From a virus: DNA of 28,550 nt. Below, in pieces: positions 5,800 to 27,167 of this stretch. The stretch's first letter is position 1. Each line of letters opens with the position of its first letter. The notes beneath the pieces were generated by a model. That model searched no databases, had not been told where the DNA came from, and saw only the letters and a program-made list of their open reading frames with translations. Made by a program: the position numbers and the translations under genes. The stretch lies in IMG/VR virus record IMGVR_UViG_3300046712_000022, positions 1 to 28,550 of that record, one strand, 5' to 3'.

Positions 5800-6158
5800 G
5801 CGCGGTGGTCGGCCTTCACGACAAGGGTGACGGCGATGCCATCCTGTGAGGCTTCTGCGGAAACCACCTCGTAATTGGTGGAGAAGGCGTCCCCAAACTG
5901 GGTGACGCCCACCCGGTCTCCGGTGATGGGGGCGACACCGAGCAGGGTCAGGCTCTGCTGGAAGGTGATCTCCAGGTGAACCTCATCGACATTTCCAACC
6001 AGCGTCAGGCTGTATCCCTCGGCAAGCTGCGTGCAGGTGCAGGTGATCGCCGGGTACGCAGTGAAAGGGGTTACGGTCTGCGTCCACGAGAATGATGCGG
6101 GCAAGTCGGCTATGGCCGCCCCGAGGTCTGCATCGAAAACAGCGACGTTAATTGCCAT
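5796..6158 (-). CDS. Head-tail joining protein candidate (lambda FII position)
   Basis: 120 residues from the ATG at 6158 (MAINVAVFDADLGAAI). The length matches lambda gpFII (117 residues), which forms the head-tail interface. The sequence is beta-rich: GYSLTLVGNVDEVHLEI, a Gly-Asp-Arg-Val turn (ITGDRVGV) and a final strand pair IAVTLVVKADHRA. The start lies 11 bases inside the preceding gene and the stop overlaps the next start by 4 bases. An upstream in-frame start at 6179 is possible but would deepen the overlap. The role is inferred from gene order and size; I do not recognise the family from sequence alone. Confidence 0.5.
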   Translation of the reverse strand: MAINVAVFDADLGAAIADLPASFSWTQTVTPFTAYPAITCTCTQLAEGYSLTLVGNVDEVHLEITFQQSLTLLGVAPITGDRVGVTQFGDAFSTNYEVVSAEASQDGIAVTLVVKADHRA

Positions 6159-6417
6159 CACCCAAGGACCGGCCGTCAACGCCGCCCTCCGACCTCATCT
6201 TATCGACCACCGCCCTGACGTCCACGTCCAGCTGCTGCAGGTAACTGAATCCACTCGAGAGGGTTTTAAGCGCCACCTCCGTCACGAGGTTTGTTGCCGC
6301 AAGCATCTGAGGATCCTCCTTCGACTTCACAAGCAGCAGGATAAACCCGCATTTCCCGGAGTGCTTCTTTACCGCCTCCCCGCACCGCTCGATCAGCTGC
6401 TGGTCAAAGTCGCCCAT
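6148..6417 (-). CDS. Small helical protein of unknown function
   Basis: 89 residues from the ATG at 6417 (MGDFDQQLIERCG). The middle has alternating helical segments (CGFILLLVKSKED, LAATNLVTEVALKTLSSGF), and the C-terminus is polar and Gly/Asp-rich. No motif I can name. The start overlaps the end of the E1-alpha-like gene by 25 bases, so this gene is read in the same transcript as both the cargo and the tail genes. It marks the left edge of the cargo block and could belong to either side; a small head-completion protein (lambda FI position) is one possibility. Confidence 0.6.
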   Translation of the reverse strand: MGDFDQQLIERCGEAVKKHSGKCGFILLLVKSKEDPQMLAATNLVTEVALKTLSSGFSYLQQLDVDVRAVVDKMRSEGGVDGRSLGDGN

Positions 6418-7037
6418 GGATTCTTTTTCGGCTGGAAGGTGATGTGATGCTTGCAACCACTTCCAGCATGAGGATACGAGGGAACGTATCTATACCTGAT
6501 GACGTGAGGTCCCCATTCTCTCCGGTGGTCTGATCCAAAGCGTACTGAAACAGACACACCCACGCTCTGGTCGTTGTCCTCGATGATGAACGTGCAGGGC
6601 AGATCTCGGCCCTGCACAAACGACACCGCTTCGTAAAAATGCCCTTCATCAGTCGCGCCGTCCCCCAGGAAGCACCACACCGCCGCCTGTGATCCCGAAT
6701 CCTTGAGCGCCAGCGCAATGCCTGCCGCGATGCAGCAGTTTCCGGCCAGGATTGCCGAGGTGAGAAAGTTGAGGCTCCGCTTGAACAGGAACATCGACTG
6801 GCCGGAATGGATGCGCTGCATCAGTTCCTCCGGGCTTCCGCCGGCCAGCAGCCAGTGGTAGTGGCTGCGATGGGATCCAAGGATCCAGTCTCCGCTGTGG
6901 ATCTGCTTAAAGATGTCAATGAGCGGCCCTTCGTTGCCCCCCGCAAGGTGCAGCAGGTACGGGAGCTCGCCCCGTTCCCAGGCAAGCTGCACCTGGTGCT
7001 CAAACTCGACAAGCTGCTCCCTGGTCGCGTTGTGCAT
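6393..7037 (-). CDS. Thiamine-diphosphate-dependent E1 alpha-like subunit
   Basis: Resembles the alpha chain of 2-oxoacid or acetoin dehydrogenase E1, which binds the diphosphate and Mg2+ end of ThDP and decarboxylates or cleaves a keto substrate. Visible hallmarks are the SHRSHYHWL segment at residues 55-63, the Gly/Ala-rich helix before the cofactor site, and the binding motif GDGATDEGHFYEA (from residue 125) ending in Asn155. At 214 residues it is much shorter than cellular E1-alpha (about 320-370). It stops soon after the cofactor site with a tail reading YPHAGSGCKHHITF, which looks like a designed ending and not random truncation. Start is taken at the ATG 2 bases after the FkbM stop; 7052 is an alternative. 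It would pair with the E1-beta-like gene at 8851. No E2 or E3 is present. Confidence 0.85.
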   Translation of the reverse strand: MHNATREQLVEFEHQVQLAWERGELPYLLHLAGGNEGPLIDIFKQIHSGDWILGSHRSHYHWLLAGGSPEELMQRIHSGQSMFLFKRSLNFLTSAILAGNCCIAAGIALALKDSGSQAAVWCFLGDGATDEGHFYEAVSFVQGRDLPCTFIIEDNDQSVGVSVSVRFGSDHRREWGPHVIRYRYVPSYPHAGSGCKHHITFQPKKNPWATLTSS

Positions 7038-7039
7038 CG

Positions 7040-7609
7040 TCAGAACATCCACTGGTGAAGCTCGATTCCCCGGGCGGCAAAAATCCGCCTGAGCCGGTTG
7101 GCCTCCTCCACGGACCCGCCCTCCTTGATGTGGTGGAACTCGACATGAATCTCTGTCATGCGCTGCAGGGCTGATGGCGCCCGGAGCAGCTTTTCAAGTA
7201 TAGAGAACTCGGAGCCCTCGCAGTCCAGCTTAAGGACGATCTTGTCGGCCGGCAGCGTGAAGGCGTAAACGGCGTCCTCGATGCCCGCCGAGAACACACG
7301 GAGGTCATAGGACGTGCGCATGTTGGCGGTCAGGTGGTCGCTGGCAAGGTAGGGCTCGAAGCTGTCGCCCCTGGGGTCGTCCTTCTGGTGGAACGCAAGT
7401 GATCCGCTCTCCCCCCGGATTCCGAACGGGCAGACGTGGACCCAGTACCGGGATTCCTGCGCGGCGGCTGTCTCCATGAGTGCCGGCACATGTCGCGGCG
7501 ACGGCTCGAAACACCAAATATCCCACCCGTCATACAGGGGTGACTTGTTTAGAAAGTCGGGAAACGTCTGCCCGACATTTGCCCCGACATCGAAGAAATG
7601 GTGCTTCAT
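7040..7609 (-). CDS. FkbM-family SAM-dependent methyltransferase
   Basis: 189 residues. The SAM-binding loop FDVGANVGQ is at residues 6-14, almost at the N-terminus as in minimal FkbM proteins. The acidic second strand motif is in WCFEPSP, and the diagnostic LKLDCEGSEFSILEKL comes near residue 130-145, followed by EIHVEFHH. Known FkbM proteins O-methylate hydroxyls of sugars, polyketides or glycan termini, and they are common in surface-polysaccharide loci. Its start overlaps the dehydrogenase stop by 4 bases and the E1-alpha-like gene follows within 2 bases, so it is part of the sugar-modification cargo. The acceptor cannot be told from sequence. Confidence 0.88.
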   Translation of the reverse strand: MKHHFFDVGANVGQTFPDFLNKSPLYDGWDIWCFEPSPRHVPALMETAAAQESRYWVHVCPFGIRGESGSLAFHQKDDPRGDSFEPYLASDHLTANMRTSYDLRVFSAGIEDAVYAFTLPADKIVLKLDCEGSEFSILEKLLRAPSALQRMTEIHVEFHHIKEGGSVEEANRLRRIFAARGIELHQWMF

Positions 7610-8694
7610 TTGTCCATGTAGATCATCACCCGCCCGGCCTCGCCGGCCTGCACGAGCGCGACGGCTTCGTTGACCTTTTCCAGCGGCAGCCGATGGGTCA
7701 CGATTCCGTCAACGTTCAGCACTCCGGCCCGCCAGGCCGCGATGTAGCGCGGGATGTCCCGGTCCGGTTTGAAGCCGCCGCCCTGCGTTGCCTTGATCGT
7801 CTTTCCCTCGCCTTCAAACATGTGGTCGGCGTTGTGCAGGAACGCTAAGTAGTTAGACGGCGGGTGGCCCACCATGATGAAGCGGCCGGACGGCGCCAGT
7901 TGCGTGAGGGAATCCGAGATAGCCTGTGGGCTGCCGGAGGTCTCAATGATGACATCGAACTGGTGGCGCGGCTCGCGCCCGTCTCTCCACATCCCACAAG
8001 AAGAGCCAGTCCACGAGTTGATCCATGGGTTTGCCATCGGCAACTTGTCGGGCGATGAGTTGATGTACTCGTGGGCCCCGAGCGCCAGCGCGACGGCCTC
8101 CTTGCCTGGGTGGATGTCGCAGCAGGCGATATGGCCCGCGCCGGCTATCCGGCAGGCCCGGATCAGGTTCATCCCAAGCCCCCCGCAGCCGACGATCAGC
8201 ACCGTTTGCCCGATCTTAAGCTCCGCCTCCCGTTCCACGGTTCCCAGGGCCGTGGACAGGCCGCAACCGAGCAAGGCGGCCAGTTCCTGCGGGGTGTCGT
8301 CAGGAACAGGCGTCAAGCGGTTCTCCGAGGCTATGCATTGCTGCGCCAGGGTGGCCACCGCGCCCGATCCGACCTTGCCCTTAGTAGAGTCATAGGTTGG
8401 CAGTCCGGACGCGATCCCTGCGGCCTTGCGCCAGTGAAGCACCACCTTCTGGCCCTTCCTGACACGGGAGACCCCTAGGCCGGTGGTAACGACGATTCCG
8501 CAGCCCTCGTGGCCGAGCAAATGGGGCAAGTGGCTTGCATCACCCTTCTCGCCCCGGATCTCCTGGAGTTGGGCGCCGCAGATGCCCGAGCAGATCATCT
8601 CAACCAGCACCTGCCCGTACCGCAGCGGCTGGTCTGGTTCCACGTCCCACAGTTCCAGCGGGGCATTCAGCTTGGTGAGGATGGCGGCTTTCAC
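7606..8694 (-). CDS. Zinc-type alcohol dehydrogenase (MDR family)
   Basis: 362 residues, medium-chain dehydrogenase/reductase fold, interconverting an alcohol or polyol and a carbonyl with NAD(P). The catalytic-domain phrase is SGICGAQLQE with candidate zinc ligand Cys39, and GHEGCGIVV gives His62-Glu63. The Rossmann signature VLIVGCGGLGMNLI lies near residue 170, followed by the acidic CCDIHP that suggests NAD preference. The usual structural-zinc cluster of four cysteines in the 90-110 region is replaced (HWRKAAGIASGLPTYD), so only the catalytic zinc site seems kept. Start is GTG, overlapping by 4 bases the stop of a 51-residue gene. It fits with the split ThDP enzyme as a reductase acting on its carbonyl product; the substrate is unknown. 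Confidence 0.88.
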   Translation of the reverse strand: MKAAILTKLNAPLELWDVEPDQPLRYGQVLVEMICSGICGAQLQEIRGEKGDASHLPHLLGHEGCGIVVTTGLGVSRVRKGQKVVLHWRKAAGIASGLPTYDSTKGKVGSGAVATLAQQCIASENRLTPVPDDTPQELAALLGCGLSTALGTVEREAELKIGQTVLIVGCGGLGMNLIRACRIAGAGHIACCDIHPGKEAVALALGAHEYINSSPDKLPMANPWINSWTGSSCGMWRDGREPRHQFDVIIETSGSPQAISDSLTQLAPSGRFIMVGHPPSNYLAFLHNADHMFEGEGKTIKATQGGGFKPDRDIPRYIAAWRAGVLNVDGIVTHRLPLEKVNEAVALVQAGEAGRVMIYMDK

Positions 8695-8846
8695 GGGTTA
8701 GGGCCTACGTTTTGCCAGGGGCGACAGAAGCAGAGGCTTCCACGGCTCTGTGGAACACGATACATAGCCACCAGCCCATCACGCTTAACTTGATGATAAT
8801 CCAGGTCGTTGTGTCTGAAATCTATCGGAGCGGGTCTTGTATTCAT
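8691..8846 (-). CDS. Small protein, 51 residues, unknown function
   Basis: An ATG at 8846, five bases after the E1-beta-like stop, opens a 51-residue frame that ends in a TGA overlapping the GTG start of the alcohol dehydrogenase by 4 bases. Beginning MNTRPAPIDFRHNDLDY, it continues with QVKRDGLVAMYRVPQS and ends with two close cysteines (LCFCRPW). The exact fit between two genes and the stop/start overlap are the reasons to accept it. The phrase around Tyr-His-Gln-Val-Lys-Arg-Asp-Gly has the look of a small conserved phage protein, but I cannot name the family. Confidence 0.65.
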   Translation of the reverse strand: MNTRPAPIDFRHNDLDYHQVKRDGLVAMYRVPQSRGSLCFCRPWQNVGPNP

Positions 8847-8850
8847 TTTG

Positions 8851-9402
8851 TCACATCAAGTCCTTGTACTCGAAAAGGGCTGTGGAGTGCGGGTACATCC
8901 CCAGCACCTCCGGGTCTTTCAACCCCTGCACGGCGGCGGCATACCAGTTTGTCACTTGCTGCTCATCCCGAAGGCTGACAACCGGAAAGGAAACCATGCT
9001 GTCGAGGGCCGCCGCAAAGTCCTGTGTGTGGGTCGGGCCGGTAAAGAGCGGTTTCTGGGTGTTGCCGACTACAATGCGCAGCAGCAGGGTCGGCCTGAAC
9101 TCCCCACGGGAGATTGTCCGCATCGCCGCCAGGTGGTTCACGATGGCGTCGAGCGCATTCAACATGAAGTCGGCACGCTCGATGTAAACCAGAGGCTTAA
9201 GCCCGGCCAAGGCCAGGCCGATCCCAAGCCCCACCATCAGGTTTTCAGCAACCGGAGTCTCGATGCATTGCTCCACCGGCACGCCTGCGAAGGTGCCGCC
9301 GCCCCGACTCGGCTGTGCTGTGCCGTAACCAATAATCCTCGCCTTTGGATCCAGCGCAAAGGCGGTCATCGCCGCCGTGAGGGCGTCTTTGTAGGCGCTC
9401 AA
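8851..9402 (-). CDS. Thiamine-diphosphate-dependent E1 beta-like (pyrimidine-domain) subunit
   Basis: 183 residues corresponding to the transketolase pyrimidine-binding domain of E1-beta. It contains VPVEQCIETPVAE, where Glu53 matches the glutamate that activates the ThDP aminopyrimidine. This is followed by LMVGLGIGLALAGLKPLVYI, the helix that packs against the alpha subunit. It ends at residue 183 and lacks the C-terminal transketolase domain of normal E1-beta (about 325 residues). With the short alpha chain at 6393 it would make a minimal two-part ThDP enzyme. The 4-base overlap with the glycosyltransferase start/stop (9399-9402) couples it to the upstream gene. Confidence 0.85.
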   Translation of the reverse strand: MSAYKDALTAAMTAFALDPKARIIGYGTAQPSRGGGTFAGVPVEQCIETPVAENLMVGLGIGLALAGLKPLVYIERADFMLNALDAIVNHLAAMRTISRGEFRPTLLLRIVVGNTQKPLFTGPTHTQDFAAALDSMVSFPVVSLRDEQQVTNWYAAAVQGLKDPEVLGMYPHSTALFEYKDLM

Positions 9403-10190
9403 ATGACGCCCTCCAACTCAAGCATCTTCTTGGCATCGCCCACCGTTTTGCAGCAGACCGTGTTCGGGGCAATGTTCACGTCCTCGTTGTCGAGCAGGAT
9501 CACCCGCCGCTTCACCGTCTCCTTGTTCCAGATGTTGAACGTGGGCCAGCTCGGGCCGGTCGAGGCCCCGACGATGTACTTGCACGAAAGGGACAGGGTT
9601 CCGATCGAGGTCACCGTCAGATGCTTGTCCGCAGCGCACGGCACCCCGAGCCTGCTTGGCTGTGTCGTTATGACGGACAGCTTCCTGGCAAGGCAGGAGA
9701 TCAGCGCCGTCATCTCGGGCTCCGAATACCTACTCCACTGGTTTGAGAGCGGCCTGGAGTTGATGACCAGCACGTCAAACGGGTCGCACAGCTTCTGCTC
9801 TTTTCTGATCGCCGGGTAGTCGAAGAGGAGATCGCCCGGCTCCTTGAGCGGCGATTCAAGCCCGAACAGTTCCGCCAGGTGGTGAAAGAAGGCGCAGTAA
9901 AATCGCCCGTAGTTGTTTTTCAGCAGGTGTGATTCCCAGAAGCCTGCGGCGTTCTTCCACACGTCCACGCTCTCCGCCGGCTTGTACTCAAGCGGGATCA
10001 GGCGCAGGTTCGGCAAGTCCCACACAACCTCCGAAAGCTGGTCCATGTAGCACAGGTGGCAGGCATGGGTGAAAAGGATTTCGGGATGCTGCTTTGCCAG
10101 CGCACGCAGGAAATGCAGATGCGCCAGGTTATCCCCGAGCCGGTAGGCGCAGAACGTGTCAACGGTCTTTGGGAGGAGTTGGCTTTTCAT
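9399..10190 (-). CDS. GT-B-like glycosyltransferase (heptosyltransferase-like)
   Basis: 263 residues. The N-terminus (YRLGDNLAHLHFLRALAKQH) resembles the Gly-Asp-Asn/Leu loop that opens GT9 heptosyltransferases and related GT-B enzymes, followed by Cys/His-rich LFTHACHLCYM. The C-terminal half has a second Rossmann-like region with VLVINSRPLSNQWSRYSE and SLSCKYIVGASTGPSWPTF, where GASTGPS resembles the donor-binding loop near the family's conserved DSGP. It would transfer a sugar from a nucleotide donor to a glycan acceptor. A moderately good ribosome binding site (GAAGGTGG) lies 9-10 bases before the ATG. It starts 32 bases inside the small membrane-protein gene. Family assignment is by pattern and moderate. 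Confidence 0.65.
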   Translation of the reverse strand: MKSQLLPKTVDTFCAYRLGDNLAHLHFLRALAKQHPEILFTHACHLCYMDQLSEVVWDLPNLRLIPLEYKPAESVDVWKNAAGFWESHLLKNNYGRFYCAFFHHLAELFGLESPLKEPGDLLFDYPAIRKEQKLCDPFDVLVINSRPLSNQWSRYSEPEMTALISCLARKLSVITTQPSRLGVPCAADKHLTVTSIGTLSLSCKYIVGASTGPSWPTFNIWNKETVKRRVILLDNEDVNIAPNTVCCKTVGDAKKMLELEGVI

Positions 10191-10395
10191 TCACGGGGTC
10201 CACCTTCAGGAGTTGGTTGGAGATGTTGAACAGATTTTTAACCAGGGCGTTCATCGTGCGCAGCGTCGGGAAGTGCTGCGTGAATAGGATCACTGTGCGC
10301 TTCGTCCCGACCCGAAAGCCAAGCGAGAGCCCCATCAGCAGGCCGAGCATCCAGGCAACTGCGCAGAGAACCGGTGTCCAGATATACCAGTTCAT
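10159..10395 (-). CDS. Small single-span membrane protein
   Basis: 78 residues from the ATG at 10395 (MNWYIWTPVLCAVAW). One strongly hydrophobic segment (about residues 4-26, ending LMGLSLGF) is followed by a basic stretch (RVGTKR), so the N-terminus is probably outside or periplasmic and the C-terminus cytoplasmic. The C-terminal half is amphipathic (MNALVKNLFNISNQLL). The start overlaps the zinc-ribbon gene stop by 4 bases. It lies between two glycosyltransferase genes and might anchor them to the membrane, but a holin-like or other membrane role is equally possible. Confidence 0.65.
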   Translation of the reverse strand: MNWYIWTPVLCAVAWMLGLLMGLSLGFRVGTKRTVILFTQHFPTLRTMNALVKNLFNISNQLLKVDPVNEKPTPPKDR

Positions 10396-10604
10396 TTTAC
10401 GAAGGGAACCAGCGCCACCTTTGGAAACTGCCACAGTTTATTGAAGTTCGTACACCTGACGAATGCGCAGCGCAGGACCGCGTTGCCGTTGCGTTGCTCC
10501 TCCTCAACCCACTCCATCCCTGTTCGGCAATGCGGGCAGATGATGCCGGTTCCAAAAAAGGCCATGCACTCCAGCTTCTCGGTCTTTATTGTTGGCGCGG
10601 CCAT
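10392..10604 (-). CDS. Small zinc-ribbon protein
   Basis: 70 residues from the ATG at 10604 (MAAPTIKTEKLECM). Paired knuckles ICPHCRTGMEW and LRCAFVRCTNF give a CxxC and CxxxxC arrangement typical of a one-zinc ribbon. No other domain. The start shares one base with the stop of the 45-residue gene upstream, and its stop overlaps the next start by 4 bases. Such ribbons are common in phages as adapters or nucleic-acid binding proteins. Specific function unknown. Confidence 0.65.
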   Translation of the reverse strand: MAAPTIKTEKLECMAFFGTGIICPHCRTGMEWVEEEQRNGNAVLRCAFVRCTNFNKLWQFPKVALVPFVK

Positions 10605-10741
10605 CAGTGTTTCCCCCACCGTTTCAACGCAGCCTTGCGTGCCTGCTCCGTGGACCGAGCCTTGCACTTGCCGCGCCCCGCCTTGCCACCAAGCCGTCCA
10701 AACAGGGCGGCGGCATCAGACTTTTTGGAGCGGCTGGTCAT
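10604..10741 (-). CDS. Very small basic protein, 45 residues
   Basis: ATG at 10741 overlaps the stop of the large glycosyltransferase by 4 bases, and its own TGA shares a base with the next ATG at 10604. It begins MTSRSKKSDAAALFGRLGG and ends EQARKAALKRWGKH. The frame has Gly-Gly-Lys-Ala and Ala-Arg-Lys-Ala-Ala-x-x-Arg-Trp-Gly patterns and resembles the small KGG-like basic proteins found on plasmids and phages. At 45 codons it is below common gene-finding limits. The perfect packing between neighbours supports it. Confidence 0.7.
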   Translation of the reverse strand: MTSRSKKSDAAALFGRLGGKAGRGKCKARSTEQARKAALKRWGKH

Positions 10742-12732
10742 TCGTTGTATTCCCGGGTCTTTTGGGGGTTGCGCCGAGTGAATGTCTCGCGCCCGCTTTG
10801 GTAATGCTTGGGATCGTTCTGCCGCCTATAGGTGTCGTCCCACTCTGCGCTCCCAAACACCGGGTGCTCGTGGACAAAGGTGATCTCATTGCGAAGGTCG
10901 AGGACAACCCCGTCCTGTAATGCCCGCACGGTAAACTCGTTGTCCGAGAACATAGAATAGTATTCGGGGGAGAATAGGTACGGCTCTCCCATAACTTCCT
11001 TGGAGGGGTCGAGCGCATTCTTTGTCCCGAGCGCATCGCGCTGCTGCTCGTAGCGGGCCCGCGTCAGGATAGCCATGCAGAACAGGTCGTCCTTGCGGTG
11101 GCCGTCCGAGATGGCGACGACAAGCGGAACCTCGCCCACATTCGCCTCCGGTCCACCCCGGTACTTTGTCTCCTTCTCCAGCGCCTGCCAGATCGCCTCA
11201 TCCCAATGCATCGGCGGGGACCAGTCGTCGGACACCTGCACAAGCACCTTGCCCTGCGAGACTGACGCCAGCGCATTCCATGCCTTCACACAGCCGTTCG
11301 GCTCCTCGATGACAAGGTGCCGGTACTCCTTCAGGTGCTTGAGGCTTTCTGCGTCGTCCTCGTCGATCCCGAAGGTGTGCTCGATTGAGATGGGGATGAA
11401 GGCCGTGCGGAAGAACAGTTCGCGGGCCCGGACTGCCTTTAGCGGCCGGCCTCGCGTTGCATGGAGGAGCGAGAACCGCCCGCCGCCACGGTGGAACACC
11501 CCGTCCTCCAGCTCCATCGCCCCCTTCTCAAATCCAGAGGCCCGCAATGATCGCGTGCGCAGCGTCAGCCCCTTTTCCCCGATGAAGCGGTCGGATTGCG
11601 GAAGCCCGGAGTCGGGTCCACGGTGGATTGACTGCATGAACTCCGAGGCCCGCCGGGCCCTGTTTGGTGATCCCGATTCCAGCTCAAGCTCCGCCATCAC
11701 ACCCCATGGATCGCGCCGGCCCGGCTCGATGCGCAAGGCTTTCCACGCATAGTTAAGCGCCTCGGCGTAGTCTCCCCTGATCCGCAGGATCTCCGCCAAG
11801 TTGAGCAGCGTGGACTGCTTGAGGGGGCTCAGGCAGTCCGATTGCGCTGTGATGTTGGCCCACCGGAACGCCTCCTCGAAAAACACATTGTTCTTCTGGT
11901 CCGCTCCCCACAGGTAGAAAAATTCCCGGTGGATCGCCTCCGCGAAGCCGTGAATGTACCGGAGCGCGAACAGCATGATCCGCACGTTGCGCATCTTGTC
12001 GCGCTCCTTGCCCGCTGTCGGCGCGTGGGTGTAGATAACCCTGTCAACGTAATCAGCCCTCGGCTTTCCCGGCACGATGCACTTCTCAAGCTCGATCTGG
12101 CAGCACTCGTGGACCGGCTGCGACCAGTGGGAGTTGCCTGTGCGAAAAAGGCGCTCGCGGTAGTTGCTTTCCCCTGAAGTCGGGATCGAGTAGTGGAAAT
12201 AAAAGAAGTCGTAGCCGGGGCGGAGCGTGCAGGCGCGGATCTCGGCCGTGTCGGCGTCCGTTGTCATGTCGTCCACATCCGCCCAAATCTGCCAGGCGCT
12301 GTTTGCCAGGCCCCAGGCCAGGTTCCGGGCTGCTGCGAAGTCGTCCACATGCGGCCAGGTCGATGGGTCGCCCTCGATGACCTCTTTTGACTCCGGGTGG
12401 GAATAGGGCAAAAGGACGTTAAAGTATTCAGCGAAGCGGAAGTTTTTCCCGTTCTGCTCGCACCATTTTTTTGCCATCGAGACGGTCTTGTCGTGGGCGT
12501 TGCGCCCGAGCGCACGAACGAGGCAGAGTTCGTCGAACGCCCCACGGAAGGCCGTCAGGAACCGGACGATGTGAAGCTCCTCGTTGCCTGTGATGACGCA
12601 GAGGGAGATTGTCGGCAGCGCGGCCGGATCTATTCCTCCTTCAATTATCCCGTCGGCTATTGCCGCCGCCGATTCCTGTTCCTCGGCGAATGGGATTACA
12701 TTCGTCTCTGCGGGTGCTTCAACTTCGGTCAT
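10738..12732 (-). CDS. Large family 2 glycosyltransferase with TPR-like middle
   Basis: 664 residues, likely cytoplasmic. The first GT-A domain starts near residue 41 (TISLCVITGNEELHIVRFL), with the metal-binding motif in WADVDDM (Asp152, Asp154, Asp155). The middle has a tetratricopeptide-like helical repeat (LLNLAEILRIRGDYAEALNY). A second region resembles a degenerate GT-A fold: the phrase KVLVQVSDDWSPPMHWDEA has the Ser-Asp-Asp pattern of the sugar donor site, and the protein ends with strands and a basic tail. A related single-domain layout is known for bacterial GT2 enzymes that glycosylate proteins or lipopolysaccharide. Two domains could mean two linkages made in sequence. It is the largest cargo gene. 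Confidence 0.85.
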   Translation of the reverse strand: MTEVEAPAETNVIPFAEEQESAAAIADGIIEGGIDPAALPTISLCVITGNEELHIVRFLTAFRGAFDELCLVRALGRNAHDKTVSMAKKWCEQNGKNFRFAEYFNVLLPYSHPESKEVIEGDPSTWPHVDDFAAARNLAWGLANSAWQIWADVDDMTTDADTAEIRACTLRPGYDFFYFHYSIPTSGESNYRERLFRTGNSHWSQPVHECCQIELEKCIVPGKPRADYVDRVIYTHAPTAGKERDKMRNVRIMLFALRYIHGFAEAIHREFFYLWGADQKNNVFFEEAFRWANITAQSDCLSPLKQSTLLNLAEILRIRGDYAEALNYAWKALRIEPGRRDPWGVMAELELESGSPNRARRASEFMQSIHRGPDSGLPQSDRFIGEKGLTLRTRSLRASGFEKGAMELEDGVFHRGGGRFSLLHATRGRPLKAVRARELFFRTAFIPISIEHTFGIDEDDAESLKHLKEYRHLVIEEPNGCVKAWNALASVSQGKVLVQVSDDWSPPMHWDEAIWQALEKETKYRGGPEANVGEVPLVVAISDGHRKDDLFCMAILTRARYEQQRDALGTKNALDPSKEVMGEPYLFSPEYYSMFSDNEFTVRALQDGVVLDLRNEITFVHEHPVFGSAEWDDTYRRQNDPKHYQSGRETFTRRNPQKTREYNE

Positions 12733-12784
12733 GACTATTTTTTAGGCGATTATCCCTTGGCGACAGGTAGTCGATGTGGGCCGC

Positions 12785-13030
12785 TTACTTTCCCGCGGGC
12801 CGCTTATCTAGGCCCTTCTCTGTGAGGATTGCGGCGAGGTCATCGACGTGCAGGCAATCGCACATGCAGGCACCCACTACGCCGGGCTGAACCGGAGCAA
12901 TCGAGCCATTGCAGTAATCGTTGCCTGGAGTGGCGTTGTGGAGCACGCCGAGGGCGTGAATCTTACCTTCGTTACCGATGGAGACGATTATGTCTCCGTT
13001 CTTAGCTTCTCTGCCGTTTCTGTAGTGCAT
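12785..13030 (-). CDS. Small phage protein of unknown function
   Basis: 81 residues (MHYRNGREAKNGDIIVSIGN). The opening Tyr-Arg-x-Gly-x-Glu-Ala-x-x-Gly-Asp is a recurring beginning in small phage proteins with an SH3-like beta barrel. Cysteines cluster later (ACMCDCLHVDDL). The basic C-terminus ends PAGK. It sits 28 bases after the preceding gene and 52 bases before the glycosyltransferase. No function can be assigned. Confidence 0.6.
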   Translation of the reverse strand: MHYRNGREAKNGDIIVSIGNEGKIHALGVLHNATPGNDYCNGSIAPVQPGVVGACMCDCLHVDDLAAILTEKGLDKRPAGK

Positions 13031-13058
13031 ATGATTATTGGTTTTGTTGTTTCATGGT

Positions 13059-13364
13059 TTACGTGTCGTCAGGGGATACTCGCCATTTTTTATCCTCAAT
13101 CCATGTCTTACACGCGGCTCCGCTTGTTACACTTACCCAATACTTCCATTTGCCTGGGCCGGGAATGTGTTGAGTTTCAGCAGTTTCACCAAAGCAAAAC
13201 CGCACCTTACCTATTTCAAAGGAAATTGCTACAAGCCCAGCTTCTCCGTACTCGTCATCACCTATTACCGGAGTGTCCGCTTTAGCTAGAAGATACCCAG
13301 CAAGCTCATGGGAGCGAATTGCTGGTGGGGCAGGGATGTACGCTGGCGGTGGATCGTCGGTCAT
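13059..13364 (-). CDS. Hypothetical protein downstream of capsid terminator
   Basis: 101 residues, starting MTDDPPPAYIPAPPAI. The Pro-rich beginning is followed by a soluble mixed region with VIGDDEYGEAGLVAISFEIG and a C-terminal Trp-rich part (KWKYWVSVTSG, KKWRVSPDD). It is the first gene after the capsid terminator, 44 bases past the hairpin. It therefore needs read-through or its own promoter, which I could not identify with confidence. Unknown function. Confidence 0.55.
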   Translation of the reverse strand: MTDDPPPAYIPAPPAIRSHELAGYLLAKADTPVIGDDEYGEAGLVAISFEIGKVRFCFGETAETQHIPGPGKWKYWVSVTSGAACKTWIEDKKWRVSPDDT

Positions 13365-13468: not shown

Positions 13469-14440
13469 TTACGCGTACTGTGTGCCGATCAGCTGCGCAC
13501 CGGCCGCCAGGACGACCTGCTCGTCCGTGTTCTGGCGCGAGCGCACGATGGTGGAGCGCAGGCGCTCCTGCCGATAGCTTTCCACCTGGAAGATGTCGGC
13601 GTCCTGCTCCCAGAAGATCGTGAAGGCCACGCTCCCGTTGAAGTATTGGTCCGGGCCGCTCGGCTCGACAATCGTTCCAAGCCACATGAGGGGATCGCTC
13701 CAGATGTTGGAGAGAACCGAGGCCGGAGAGCCTTGGGCCGAACCGTCGTAGGTGGCGCGTCCGATCAGCACCTGCTTCACGTTCAGGGCGTCGGCCATTG
13801 CCTCGGTTCCGAGTGTGATGAAGGTGTCCGTCGAGACCGTACCCCTGATCCTGTTCTGCAGCTTCGTCGAGCCACGGATGCGCAGGAAGTTGTTGTAGGA
13901 CATGACCAAAGTCAGGTTGTCCACGTTCTCCCCGCGTCCCTGGATCTGCGCCTTGGCCGAATCCACGTCCAGGCCAACATCGAAGGTGGCAATGTTCGTG
14001 GTCGTGTACGAGAGGGCGCCTGTGAAGGTCGAGAATGTTGCCGGGGCCTGCAGGAGGTTGGACACGCGGATCTCGTGGCCGATCTGCACCTGCCGGTAGG
14101 CCCACACCGTCTCACGGGCCTCGAGGTCGAAGAACCTCCCGATGGTCCGGGCGTTCTTGTCCGGCACGACTGCCTCGATGCCGTACTCCTCGCAGTTGTA
14201 CTGGCCAGGCACCCAGGCACGCATGATGCGGGGGTAGTCGCTGCCGGCCGAGATCGGCTTCGCCTCGTTGCGGAGCAGGTTGCCCGCGTTCTTCTGGATG
14301 ATGGGGTACTGCCCGGCCTCCGTCTGCACCGGAATCGGAGGGCAGCACTTGGGGCCGATGAAGAGTTCGCTTTGGAGGAACGCTTCCTCGACGACACCCC
14401 GGAGATCTGCACGAAGGATCGCGCCGCCTAGTCCAAACAT
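13469..14440 (-). CDS. Major capsid protein, lambda gpE-like
   Basis: 323 residues (lambda gpE is 341). It should form the HK97-fold shell lattice. The N-terminal arm (FGLGGAILRADLRGVVEEAF) is followed by PIIQKNAGNLLRNEAKPI, a region like the E-loop, then a P-domain/A-domain body with TLVMSYNNFLRIRGSTKLQN and WSDPLMWLGTIVEPSG, matching the GpE family pattern. It directly follows the decoration gene, as E follows D in lambda. The terminator just downstream ends the head operon. No obvious cleavage site for the prohead protease is visible. Confidence 0.9.
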   Translation of the reverse strand: MFGLGGAILRADLRGVVEEAFLQSELFIGPKCCPPIPVQTEAGQYPIIQKNAGNLLRNEAKPISAGSDYPRIMRAWVPGQYNCEEYGIEAVVPDKNARTIGRFFDLEARETVWAYRQVQIGHEIRVSNLLQAPATFSTFTGALSYTTTNIATFDVGLDVDSAKAQIQGRGENVDNLTLVMSYNNFLRIRGSTKLQNRIRGTVSTDTFITLGTEAMADALNVKQVLIGRATYDGSAQGSPASVLSNIWSDPLMWLGTIVEPSGPDQYFNGSVAFTIFWEQDADIFQVESYRQERLRSTIVRSRQNTDEQVVLAAGAQLIGTQYA

Positions 14441-25483: not shown

Positions 25484-26244
25484 ATAAAACCAAAATCTAC
25501 GCCGACCATTCGGCTTTCCTCGGCCGCGAGGACAAAGACACCAACGGCGTCTCTCCTGCCCACACGGAGTCGCACAGCGACTACGCGAAAGAAAATGAAA
25601 CGAACAAGGGGTGTTGGAACTGCTCCGACTGCTCCGACTGCTACGACTGCTCCGGCTGCTACGGCTGCTCCGACTGCTCCGACTGCTACGGCTGCTCCGA
25701 CTGCTCCGGCTGCTCCCGCTGCTCCGGCTGCTCCCGCTGCTCCCGCTGCTACGACTGCTCCGGCTGCTCCCGCTGCTCCGACTGCTCCGACTGCTACGAC
25801 TGCTCCGGCTGCTCCGGCTGCTCCGGCTGCTCCGGCTGCTACGGCTGCTCCGGCTGCTACGGCTGCTCCGGCTGCTACGGCTTGCGCGACAAAAAAAAGT
25901 CAAAGCCGGTTGAAGCCGAGGCTGGCACATCATGGTTTAACGTTCCGGTCATCAAGAACCTACACACCCTGCTTCTCTCCGTCGTCGAGCAGCCAAACGC
26001 GCTCGACATGTCAACCTGGCACGTCTGCAGAACGACGCATTGCCGGGCTGGGTGGGTCGTGACGCTCGCTGGCGAGAAGGGAAAGGCCCTTGAGAAGTCG
26101 AGTTCAACCCTCTTTGCCGCCATGCAGATTTGCAAGGCGTCGAGCCCCATCAAAGTGAGCCCCGTCAGGTTCTTTGAGACAAACGAGGTCGCCATGGCCG
26201 ACATCAGGCGGTGCGCTGCTGAGGAACTGGCGGCAACCCCATGA
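25480..26244 (+). CDS. Cys-tripeptide repeat protein
   Basis: 254 residues. An N-terminal polar segment is followed by 30 tandem Cys-x-x tripeptides (residues about 45-134), then a globular C-terminal domain starting near FNVPVIKNLHTLLLSVVEQP with a conserved-looking WHVCRTTHCRAGWVVTLAG and later AAMQICKASSPIKVSPVRFF. The same C-terminal domain type recurs, as far as I recall, in uncharacterised phage proteins. The repeat could form a metal-binding or disulfide-stapled solenoid; Cys makes up about a third of it. The start overlaps the preceding stop by 4 bases. No signal peptide is visible, which argues for a cytoplasmic, metal-bound state. Confidence 0.75.
   Translation: MNKTKIYADHSAFLGREDKDTNGVSPAHTESHSDYAKENETNKGCWNCSDCSDCYDCSGCYGCSDCSDCYGCSDCSGCSRCSGCSRCSRCYDCSGCSRCSDCSDCYDCSGCSGCSGCSGCYGCSGCYGCSGCYGLRDKKKSKPVEAEAGTSWFNVPVIKNLHTLLLSVVEQPNALDMSTWHVCRTTHCRAGWVVTLAGEKGKALEKSSSTLFAAMQICKASSPIKVSPVRFFETNEVAMADIRRCAAEELAATP
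25612..25881 (+). repeat. 30-copy 9-base tandem repeat inside the Cys-repeat gene
   Basis: Unit TGC-T[C/A]C-[G/C][A/G]C, encoding Cys-Ser/Tyr-Asp/Gly/Arg. Only the first unit differs (TGTTGGAAC). Codons are fixed, so units differ by at most three bases. Units 2-5 and 19-22 are the same four-unit block (SD, SD, YD, SG), which suggests block duplication. Arg units occur only at positions 12, 14, 15 and 18. CYR is never used. Confidence 0.95.
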
Positions 26245-27167
26245 GCCGGCACGCCCGGGAGAATCCCGAACAGGAACGCCTGAAGTCCCTTGAGCATATT
26301 CCAGCACAACGAGCCATGACCAAAATCTCCAAGTCGGACCAGCCTATGAAAACAACACCCCTGCTCGCATACCACGGCAACCGCCGCATCAAGGAAAAGT
26401 ACCTGAAGCGCGTCCGCGCCCACGCCAAGGCCGATGAGATCATCAGCGGCTCCTACTGGGAGAACGGCAAGGGCTGCGCGGTCGGCTGCACCATCCACGG
26501 GTCGAACCACGCGGCATACGAGACCGAGATCGGCGTCCCGCAGGTCTTGGCGCGGCTGGAGGACCGGCTGTTCGAGGGGCTTTACGCGACGGGCAATGTC
26601 CAGCGCGCCAAGGAGTGGCCCGAGGAGTTTCTGCGGTCGATCAAGCCCGGGGCCGACCTTTCGCTCGTCTGGGCGAAGTTCGGCGCGTGGCTGCTCTTGG
26701 ATGAGACTTCAGGCGTCATCGCGTTCGCCAAGCGCCCGCAGACTATCGAGAGCATCCAGCGCGTCGGAGCACTTTACCAGAGGTGGGCGGTGGGCGACAA
26801 GCCCGCAACCACCGAATGGGAAAGTGCGAAAAATTTAGCCGCCGCCTACGCCGTCGCCCACGCCGCCTACGTCGCCTACGCCGCCGCCTACGCCGCCGCC
26901 TACGCCGCCGTCGCCGGCGGCGACGCCGCCGCCGCCGCCGACGCCGCCTCCGCCGCCGCCTACGCCGTCTACGCCGACTCCGACGCCGCCGCCGCCGCCT
27001 ACGCCTACGCCGCCTACGCCGTCTACGCCGCCTACGCCGCCGCCTCCGCCGACGCCGCCTCCGCCGCCGCCGCCGCCGCCTACGCCTACGCCGCCGATCG
27101 AAAGGCTCGCGGTGCCCACTACGTCAAGATGGCCGACAAGCTGATCGAGCTGCTGAAAGCCGCATGA
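26241..27167 (+). CDS. Ala/Tyr-repeat protein with GCAVGCTIH domain
   Basis: 308 residues from the ATG at 26241, overlapping the previous stop by 4 bases; starts at 26316 or 26346 are possible alternatives, and the domain proper begins near the latter (TTPLLAYHGNRRIKEKYL). The domain contains KGCAVGCTIHGSNHAAYE with Cys, His and Glu in a tight pattern, and later LARLEDRLFEGLY. Residues 200-285 are an 86-residue Ala/Tyr/Asp/Val/Ser low-complexity stretch, and a short helical end follows (YVKMADKLIELLKAA). It neighbours the Cys-repeat gene, and the pair may work together. Function unknown. Confidence 0.7.
   Translation: MSRHARENPEQERLKSLEHIPAQRAMTKISKSDQPMKTTPLLAYHGNRRIKEKYLKRVRAHAKADEIISGSYWENGKGCAVGCTIHGSNHAAYETEIGVPQVLARLEDRLFEGLYATGNVQRAKEWPEEFLRSIKPGADLSLVWAKFGAWLLLDETSGVIAFAKRPQTIESIQRVGALYQRWAVGDKPATTEWESAKNLAAAYAVAHAAYVAYAAAYAAAYAAVAGGDAAAAADAASAAAYAVYADSDAAAAAYAYAAYAVYAAYAAASADAASAAAAAAYAYAADRKARGAHYVKMADKLIELLKAA
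26838..27095 (+). repeat. Ala/Tyr low-complexity repeat, 86 codons all ending in C
   Basis: 258 bases made mostly of GCC with TAC, GTC, GAC, TCC and a few CAC and GGC codons. Every codon ends in C. The alternate frame on the same strand is also open and Arg/Leu-rich, and the minus strand is open and Gly/Val-rich. Both follow from this simple base pattern. Confidence 0.9.

Follow-up and report, generated by a model that had tools for sequence, protein, structure and literature searches.

In avilamycin biosynthesis, the E1-type pair of thiamine diphosphate (ThDP) subunits is named AviB1/AviB2. Like this pair, the E1-type pairs Plm8/Plm9 (paulomycin) and EvdU5/EvdS3 (everninomicin) have been assigned the two-carbon branching of keto-sugars (PMC4802897; PMC10338323). 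All of these consist of separate alpha and beta subunits resembling pyruvate dehydrogenase E1, in a sugar-biosynthesis setting with glycosyl- and methyltransferases. To our knowledge, the building of rare sugars by C-C bond chemistry is not usually ascribed to phages. For mycobacteriophages, whose virion glycosylation was reportedly described by Freeman and colleagues in 2023 (cited in PMC11256854), the decoration of capsid proteins has been proposed, or shown, to be the work of phage-encoded glycosyltransferases, and we came across no account of a ThDP module for sugar building in connection with it. Here we describe a cassette in a viral sequence, IMG/VR record IMGVR_UViG_3300046712_000022, positions 1 to 28,550 (the 28.5-kb window), in which two glycosyltransferases, an E1-like ThDP pair, a zinc-dependent medium-chain dehydrogenase/reductase (MDR) and an FkbM-type methyltransferase lie behind the major capsid gene. 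Two new and well-supported observations emerge from its relatives: the exclusive exchange of the redox partner of the ThDP pair, and the linkage of one glycosyltransferase to the capsid gene. No description of the cassette was found in a literature search that left subscription papers largely outside its reach.

The cassette shares the alpha/beta organization and the glycosyl- and methyltransferase company of the antibiotic pathways, but its pair, compared with theirs by description, comprises the ThDP domains alone and lacks the E1-beta C-terminal domain. The keto-sugar step also differs, being carried out by 4,6-dehydratases or decarboxylases in those pathways and, as predicted here, by a linked MDR or radical S-adenosylmethionine (SAM) enzyme in the phages. 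The mycobacteriophage systems use other glycosyltransferases, and in Maravista the genes are found close to the end of the genome instead of following the capsid gene.

The choice of redox partner is strict. Across 35 independent groups of E1 loci, formed by merging loci with a common exact 60-mer (anchored at GATC), 16 encode the MDR and 18 a radical-SAM enzyme, while none has both and one, from a bacterial metagenome-assembled genome (MAG), has neither. Partners were counted by profile search of all stop-to-stop frames, as greedy open reading frame (ORF) calling missed genes on GC-rich loci. The absence of overlap has a probability of ~4e-9 under independence, a hypergeometric value calculated by hand that ignores relatedness. 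The E1 tree shows at least three switches of partner, of which a minimum of two are forced by supported branches, and a single clade of MDR types is rejected (approximately unbiased test, p-AU 2.2e-7). All 19 members of the radical-SAM family examined (19/19) carry the CX3CX2C motif plus exactly four more invariant cysteines, as expected for a putative twitch domain whose single auxiliary cluster is fully ligated. In locus L072 (6157-8280), the radical-SAM gene encodes 707 amino acids (aa) and seemingly contains an intein-like insertion past the first cysteines.

A similar alternation between MDR and twitch radical-SAM enzymes is found at one step of 2-deoxystreptamine biosynthesis: the step of BtrN is done by an MDR dehydrogenase in other 2-deoxystreptamine clusters. 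BtrN, which is alike in its number of auxiliary-cluster ligands, oxidises an aminocyclitol alcohol to a ketone (PMC9012708). The original prediction had placed carboligation first and carbonyl reduction after it. That order is now doubtful, because the MDR is replaced exactly by a radical-SAM enzyme of the twitch type, to which alcohol oxidases such as BtrN belong. By this analogy, the redox partner would somewhat more probably oxidise a sugar alcohol ahead of the ThDP reaction than reduce its product.

The second observation concerns the larger glycosyltransferase, named GT664 for its 664 aa. A scan with a capsid alignment retrieved 186 relatives, and the best 80 of these form 19 independent groups, in 15 of which GT664 follows the capsid gene at a distance of no more than 1 kb. 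Conversely, a GT664 scan retrieved at least 568 relatives. Of the best 80 loci, 73 had enough upstream sequence to be informative, and a capsid gene is present no more than 1.2 kb upstream of GT664 in 67 of the 73 (46 of the phrog_1005 type and 21 of the P22 type, PF11651). Behind GT664, relatives encode other GT9-like or glycosyltransferase-like proteins and FkbM/Methyltransf_24 proteins, followed by head-tail genes. Among the best 80 capsid loci, the E1 module is limited to a near relative of the cassette and L170/L191. The locus is best read as a fixed capsid-adjacent glycosylation island, part of which is exchangeable, and not as a single cargo insertion. The 7-kb block previously taken for one insert therefore has to be divided into GT664, which regularly accompanies the capsid gene, and the exchangeable GT9, E1, redox and methylation genes.

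Differing glycosyltransferase and methyltransferase genes follow GT664 in L171, L183, L193, L209, L226 and L229, in the manner of a swap hotspot. In L193, the exchanged gene is directly behind the capsid gene.

The minus strand of the window holds every gene of the original prediction as a real ORF. From the capsid gene onwards, in the direction of transcription, the features are as follows.

13469..14440, minus strand: major capsid protein, phrog_1005 (PHROG match 1.4e-25).
13059..13364, minus strand: small ORF of 101 aa (ORF alone, without a family match and without similarity in L002, a related contig described below).
12785..13030, minus strand: small ORF of 81 aa (ORF alone).
10738..12732, minus strand: GT664, a GT2-type GT-A domain, tetratricopeptide repeat (TPR)-like helices and a second GT-A domain; putative virion protein glycosyltransferase (motifs, profiles and fold).
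10392..10667, minus strand: small ORF of 91 aa, zinc-ribbon-like CPHC...CAFVRC (sequence inspection; not found in L002).
10159..10434, minus strand: small protein with a single apparent membrane helix (inspection; L002 homologue with 60% identity).
9399..10190, minus strand: GT9-like (GT-B) glycosyltransferase of 263 aa (AlphaFold2 model and fold search).
8851..9402, minus strand: E1-beta-like ThDP subunit of 183 aa, pyrimidine-binding domain alone (Transket_pyr; catalytic Glu53 kept).
8691..8846, minus strand: possible ORF of 51 aa in the gap between E1-beta and MDR, overlapping the MDR start by 4 nt (junction sequence).
7606..8694, minus strand: zinc MDR dehydrogenase (ADH_N/ADH_zinc_N, phrog_2640).
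7040..7609, minus strand: FkbM-type methyltransferase (TIGR01444 above cut-off).
6393..7052, minus strand: E1-alpha-like ThDP subunit, pyrophosphate (PP) domain (E1_dh; GDG(130-132)...N160 kept).
6148..6456, minus strand: first gene past the cassette, a head-tail gene by position (49% identical to the L002 gene, without a profile match).

The core genes of the cassette overlap or nearly abut, and the sole gap is filled by the 51-aa ORF. A lambda gene order had been claimed for both sides. It stands for the left flank, where profiles identify a lambda-family portal (PF05136), a GpA-type terminase (PF05876) and the phrog_1005 major head protein. For the right flank, the genes tested gave no profile match for the FII/Z/U/V-like labels, which are based on gene size and order. 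Neither an Rfam nor a tRNA scan of the window gave a match. Tandem repeats are present at window positions 25620-25882 (9 bp units) and 26840-27095 (9/21/30 bp), where the coding strand appears to switch.

In GT664, the acidic motifs D152-x-D154-D155 and S501-D502-D503-W504 are invariant (13 homologues). The nearest solved glycosyltransferases to its N-terminal domain are GmaR, SunS and ThuS, whose substrates are flagellin or peptides. They are the top glycosyltransferase matches by profile (GmaR 5e-19, SunS 7e-12, ThuS 2.5e-8, plus TPR chains), and the fold matches are SunS/ThuS and GT-A domains. GT664 also has the GmaR/SunS-type arrangement of a GT2-type domain with a DxD motif followed by TPR-like helices, but differs from these enzymes in its second GT-A domain and its capsid linkage. 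Thus, the two glycosyltransferases claimed earlier are two proteins, but they amount to three catalytic domains.

The second glycosyltransferase, the 263-aa protein, has no Pfam match. Its AlphaFold2 model (pLDDT 94.8) adopts a GT9/GT-B fold, matching WaaC (Z 14.3, root-mean-square deviation 4.0, 236 residues) and the protein heptosyltransferase TibC (Z 13.5). A GT9 profile search of the PDB found no sequence match, whereas the fold search did. The gene adjoins E1-beta in many phages.

The split ThDP enzyme, the MDR dehydrogenase and the FkbM methyltransferase of the original prediction are borne out by profiles and intact catalytic motifs. Pfam matches are E1_dh for E1-alpha (1.8e-19), Transket_pyr for E1-beta (2.5e-8) and ADH_N/ADH_zinc_N for the MDR (~1e-14), which also belongs to phrog_2640 (1.4e-71). 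Alignment to human pyruvate dehydrogenase (PDH) E1-alpha shows an intact ThDP/metal motif, G130-D131-G132 and N160, and alignment to solved E1-beta places the catalytic Glu53 in an invariant ETPxAEN. The catalytic zinc ligands of the MDR (C39, H62(E63) and C144) and its NAD-binding glycines (G169, G171, G172 and G174) are likewise invariant. FkbM matches TIGR01444 (1.8e-14, 54.4 bits, cut-off 37.7) and Pfam (5.7e-9, 36.8 bits, cut-off 22.7). Judged by these residues, the cassette enzymes look active, and a dead E1 pair is not supported, since the catalytic motifs are intact.

The E1 pair is minimal, with one PP and one pyrimidine-binding (PYR) domain. The 183-aa E1-beta consists of Transket_pyr alone, solved E1-beta chains align over about the first half, and neither profile nor alignment to these chains finds a C-terminal Transketolase_C domain. 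As this domain carries E2 docking, an E2-dependent dehydrogenase is unlikely. A canonical PDH or acetoin dehydrogenase E1 was rejected, given the missing E1-beta C-terminal domain and no E2/E3 gene seen. A YerE-type ThDP enzyme was rejected as well, the top families being E1 and not acetolactate synthase; the yersiniose pathway, cited in the original prediction, is a more distant precedent than the E1-type pairs AviB1/AviB2, Plm8/Plm9 and EvdU5/EvdS3.

The cassette is far more than a chance assembly: an independent contig from another sample (L002) retains capsid, GT664, GT9, E1-beta, MDR, FkbM and E1-alpha in order at 66-84% identity, with dN/dS of ~0.14-0.22 for each gene compared (approximate ratios, as dS is near saturation). 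Single-protein scans with the MDR or the major capsid protein gave almost solely the nearest relative, and alignments were used for family scans. In IMG/VR, these identified at least 495 viral relatives of E1-alpha and at least 244 of E1-beta. By comparison, 84,980 species genomes yielded at least 10 loci; among these, L094 and L095 have matches of some 50 residues only and failed the profile recount. In one bacterial phylum (297 genomes), the short form is present in the query genome alone (322 bits), while the hits in the other 296 do not exceed 103 bits and almost all fall in longer ORFs of canonical length (320-440 aa). The short E1 family is largely viral. The co-occurrence in other phage genomes that had been proposed as a check is thus observed, both for the whole cassette in L002 and for the E1 pair in many phages. 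Neither outcome named as speaking against a dedicated pathway was seen: the set is not confined to a host operon fragment, and the E1 pair is not catalytically dead.

Among named phages, the short E1 family is found in cyanophages S-SM2 and P-TIM68, where alpha and beta are fused in a ‘transketolase central region’ protein (phrog_34187) adjoining the same MDR family. Unlike the cassette, this pair of genes is part of a large nucleotide-sugar/glycosyltransferase cluster, with no GT664 in the stretch examined. A 735-kb uncultured phage encodes GT9-like, E1-beta, radical-SAM and E1-alpha proteins. The rare cellular loci, from candidate-phyla bacteria (L090, L091) and from archaeal and bacterial MAGs (L086-L088, L092), contain an MDR and a sugar kinase, or one or two radical-SAM genes. 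In L056, L061, L067, L085 and L165, E1-alpha, E1-beta and radical-SAM genes, in this order, adjoin RecT/RusA-like replication genes (by inspection) instead of capsid genes, with another glycosyltransferase-like gene behind.

Taken together, the locus is very likely a dedicated phage glycan module. The original prediction had left the destination of the modified sugar between a host glycan and the virion. A virion protein is the probable target, because GT664 is positioned behind the capsid gene and resembles protein and peptide glycosyltransferases. The sequences show gene identities, catalytic motifs, conservation, partner exchange and capsid linkage; from these and from precedent we infer substrates, step order and target as follows. 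GT664, encoded among late structural genes, would start a glycan on a virion protein by attaching its first sugar, with the product of the capsid gene just upstream as the likeliest acceptor; its second GT-A domain may lengthen the glycan, and the GT9-like enzyme may add a further sugar. The exchangeable module behind GT664 would make or tailor the sugar. Its starting material may be a host nucleoside diphosphate (NDP)-sugar or an already attached sugar; among the cassette genes none for nucleotide-sugar synthesis was seen, and hence the precursor must come from the host. The MDR, or the radical-SAM enzyme in other phages, would convert a sugar hydroxyl to a ketone, to which the short E1 pair would add a ThDP-bound small acyl unit (e.g. 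from pyruvate), giving a branched sugar. FkbM would then O-methylate this sugar, and GT664 and the GT9-like enzyme would transfer it to the capsid.

A C-C-branched product, proposed by analogy with the antibiotic pathways, falls just short of being probable, and the capsid-adjacent glycosylation island as a whole explanation is evenly poised. The full chain, in which a phage-owned pathway largely absent from sampled cells uses a split ThDP enzyme of minimal size, together with an interchangeable MDR or radical-SAM partner, to make a C-C-branched sugar for the virion, transferred by the capsid-linked glycosyltransferase, is a tentative and rather unlikely proposal.

Several findings weigh against these proposals. 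Besides the lack of a nucleotide-sugar synthesis gene, the E1 module accompanies GT664 in only 2 of the best 80 GT664 loci, and in some phages it is located away from the capsid gene, beside replication-type genes. In cyanophages and candidate-phyla bacteria, the module's counterparts are found among sugar kinases, epimerases or nucleotidyltransferases in surface-polysaccharide-like surroundings, and S-SM2 E1-alpha has D in place of the metal-binding N. GT9 enzymes classically act on the lipopolysaccharide (LPS) core. Among solved radical-SAM enzymes, BtrN is not the closest to the phage family, being outscored against its profile by SuiB, BlsE, MoaA, SkfB and PqqE, and radical-SAM enzymes can also dehydrate, epimerise or rearrange.

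The ThDP pair could instead make or shorten a sugar or small acyl unit, acting as a decarboxylase, as a transketolase-like enzyme or by cleaving C-C bonds, with the redox partner acting elsewhere in the pathway. Two-domain ThDP enzymes do include decarboxylases, the E1-alpha profile also touches 1-deoxy-D-xylulose 5-phosphate (DXP) synthase and transketolase, and substrate residues are not readable from sequence. The strict, exclusive redox pairing and the E1-type precedents in branched-sugar synthesis favour a keto-sugar acceptor, which leaves this alternative possible but doubtful. The main rival on the target, which is compatible with the former as one concerns the target and the other the reaction, is host-surface remodelling, in which the modified sugar is placed on host LPS or O-antigen during infection, e.g. 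to exclude other phages. A comparable reading has been published for pelagimyophage glycosyltransferases (PMC7029224), the GT9 fold is closest to the LPS heptosyltransferase WaaC, and S-SM2 and P-TIM68 keep the MDR and fused E1 in a nucleotide-sugar/glycosyltransferase cluster. However, the cassette is part of the late structural block right behind the capsid gene, where GT664 is nearly always found, the nearest solved relatives of GT664 modify proteins or peptides, and the cassette itself showed no gene for a flippase, a polymerase or a lipid carrier, making a host-surface target unlikely. An accidental host operon fragment without phage function, suggested by how common the MDR, FkbM and E1 superfamilies are in bacteria and by canonical E1-alpha in many genomes, is ruled out for practical purposes by conserved gene order, purifying selection, hundreds of viral relatives and the near-absence of the short E1 from sampled genomes.

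Few cases of virion glycosylation in phages are known. In the island described here, a single position behind the capsid gene accommodates exchangeable glycan genes, and does so in two unrelated capsid families; one of the exchangeable modules couples a ThDP enzyme to either of two unrelated redox enzymes. A glycosylation island of this kind predicts unusual glycans on the capsids of environmental phages, which may serve in stability, host recognition or defence evasion.

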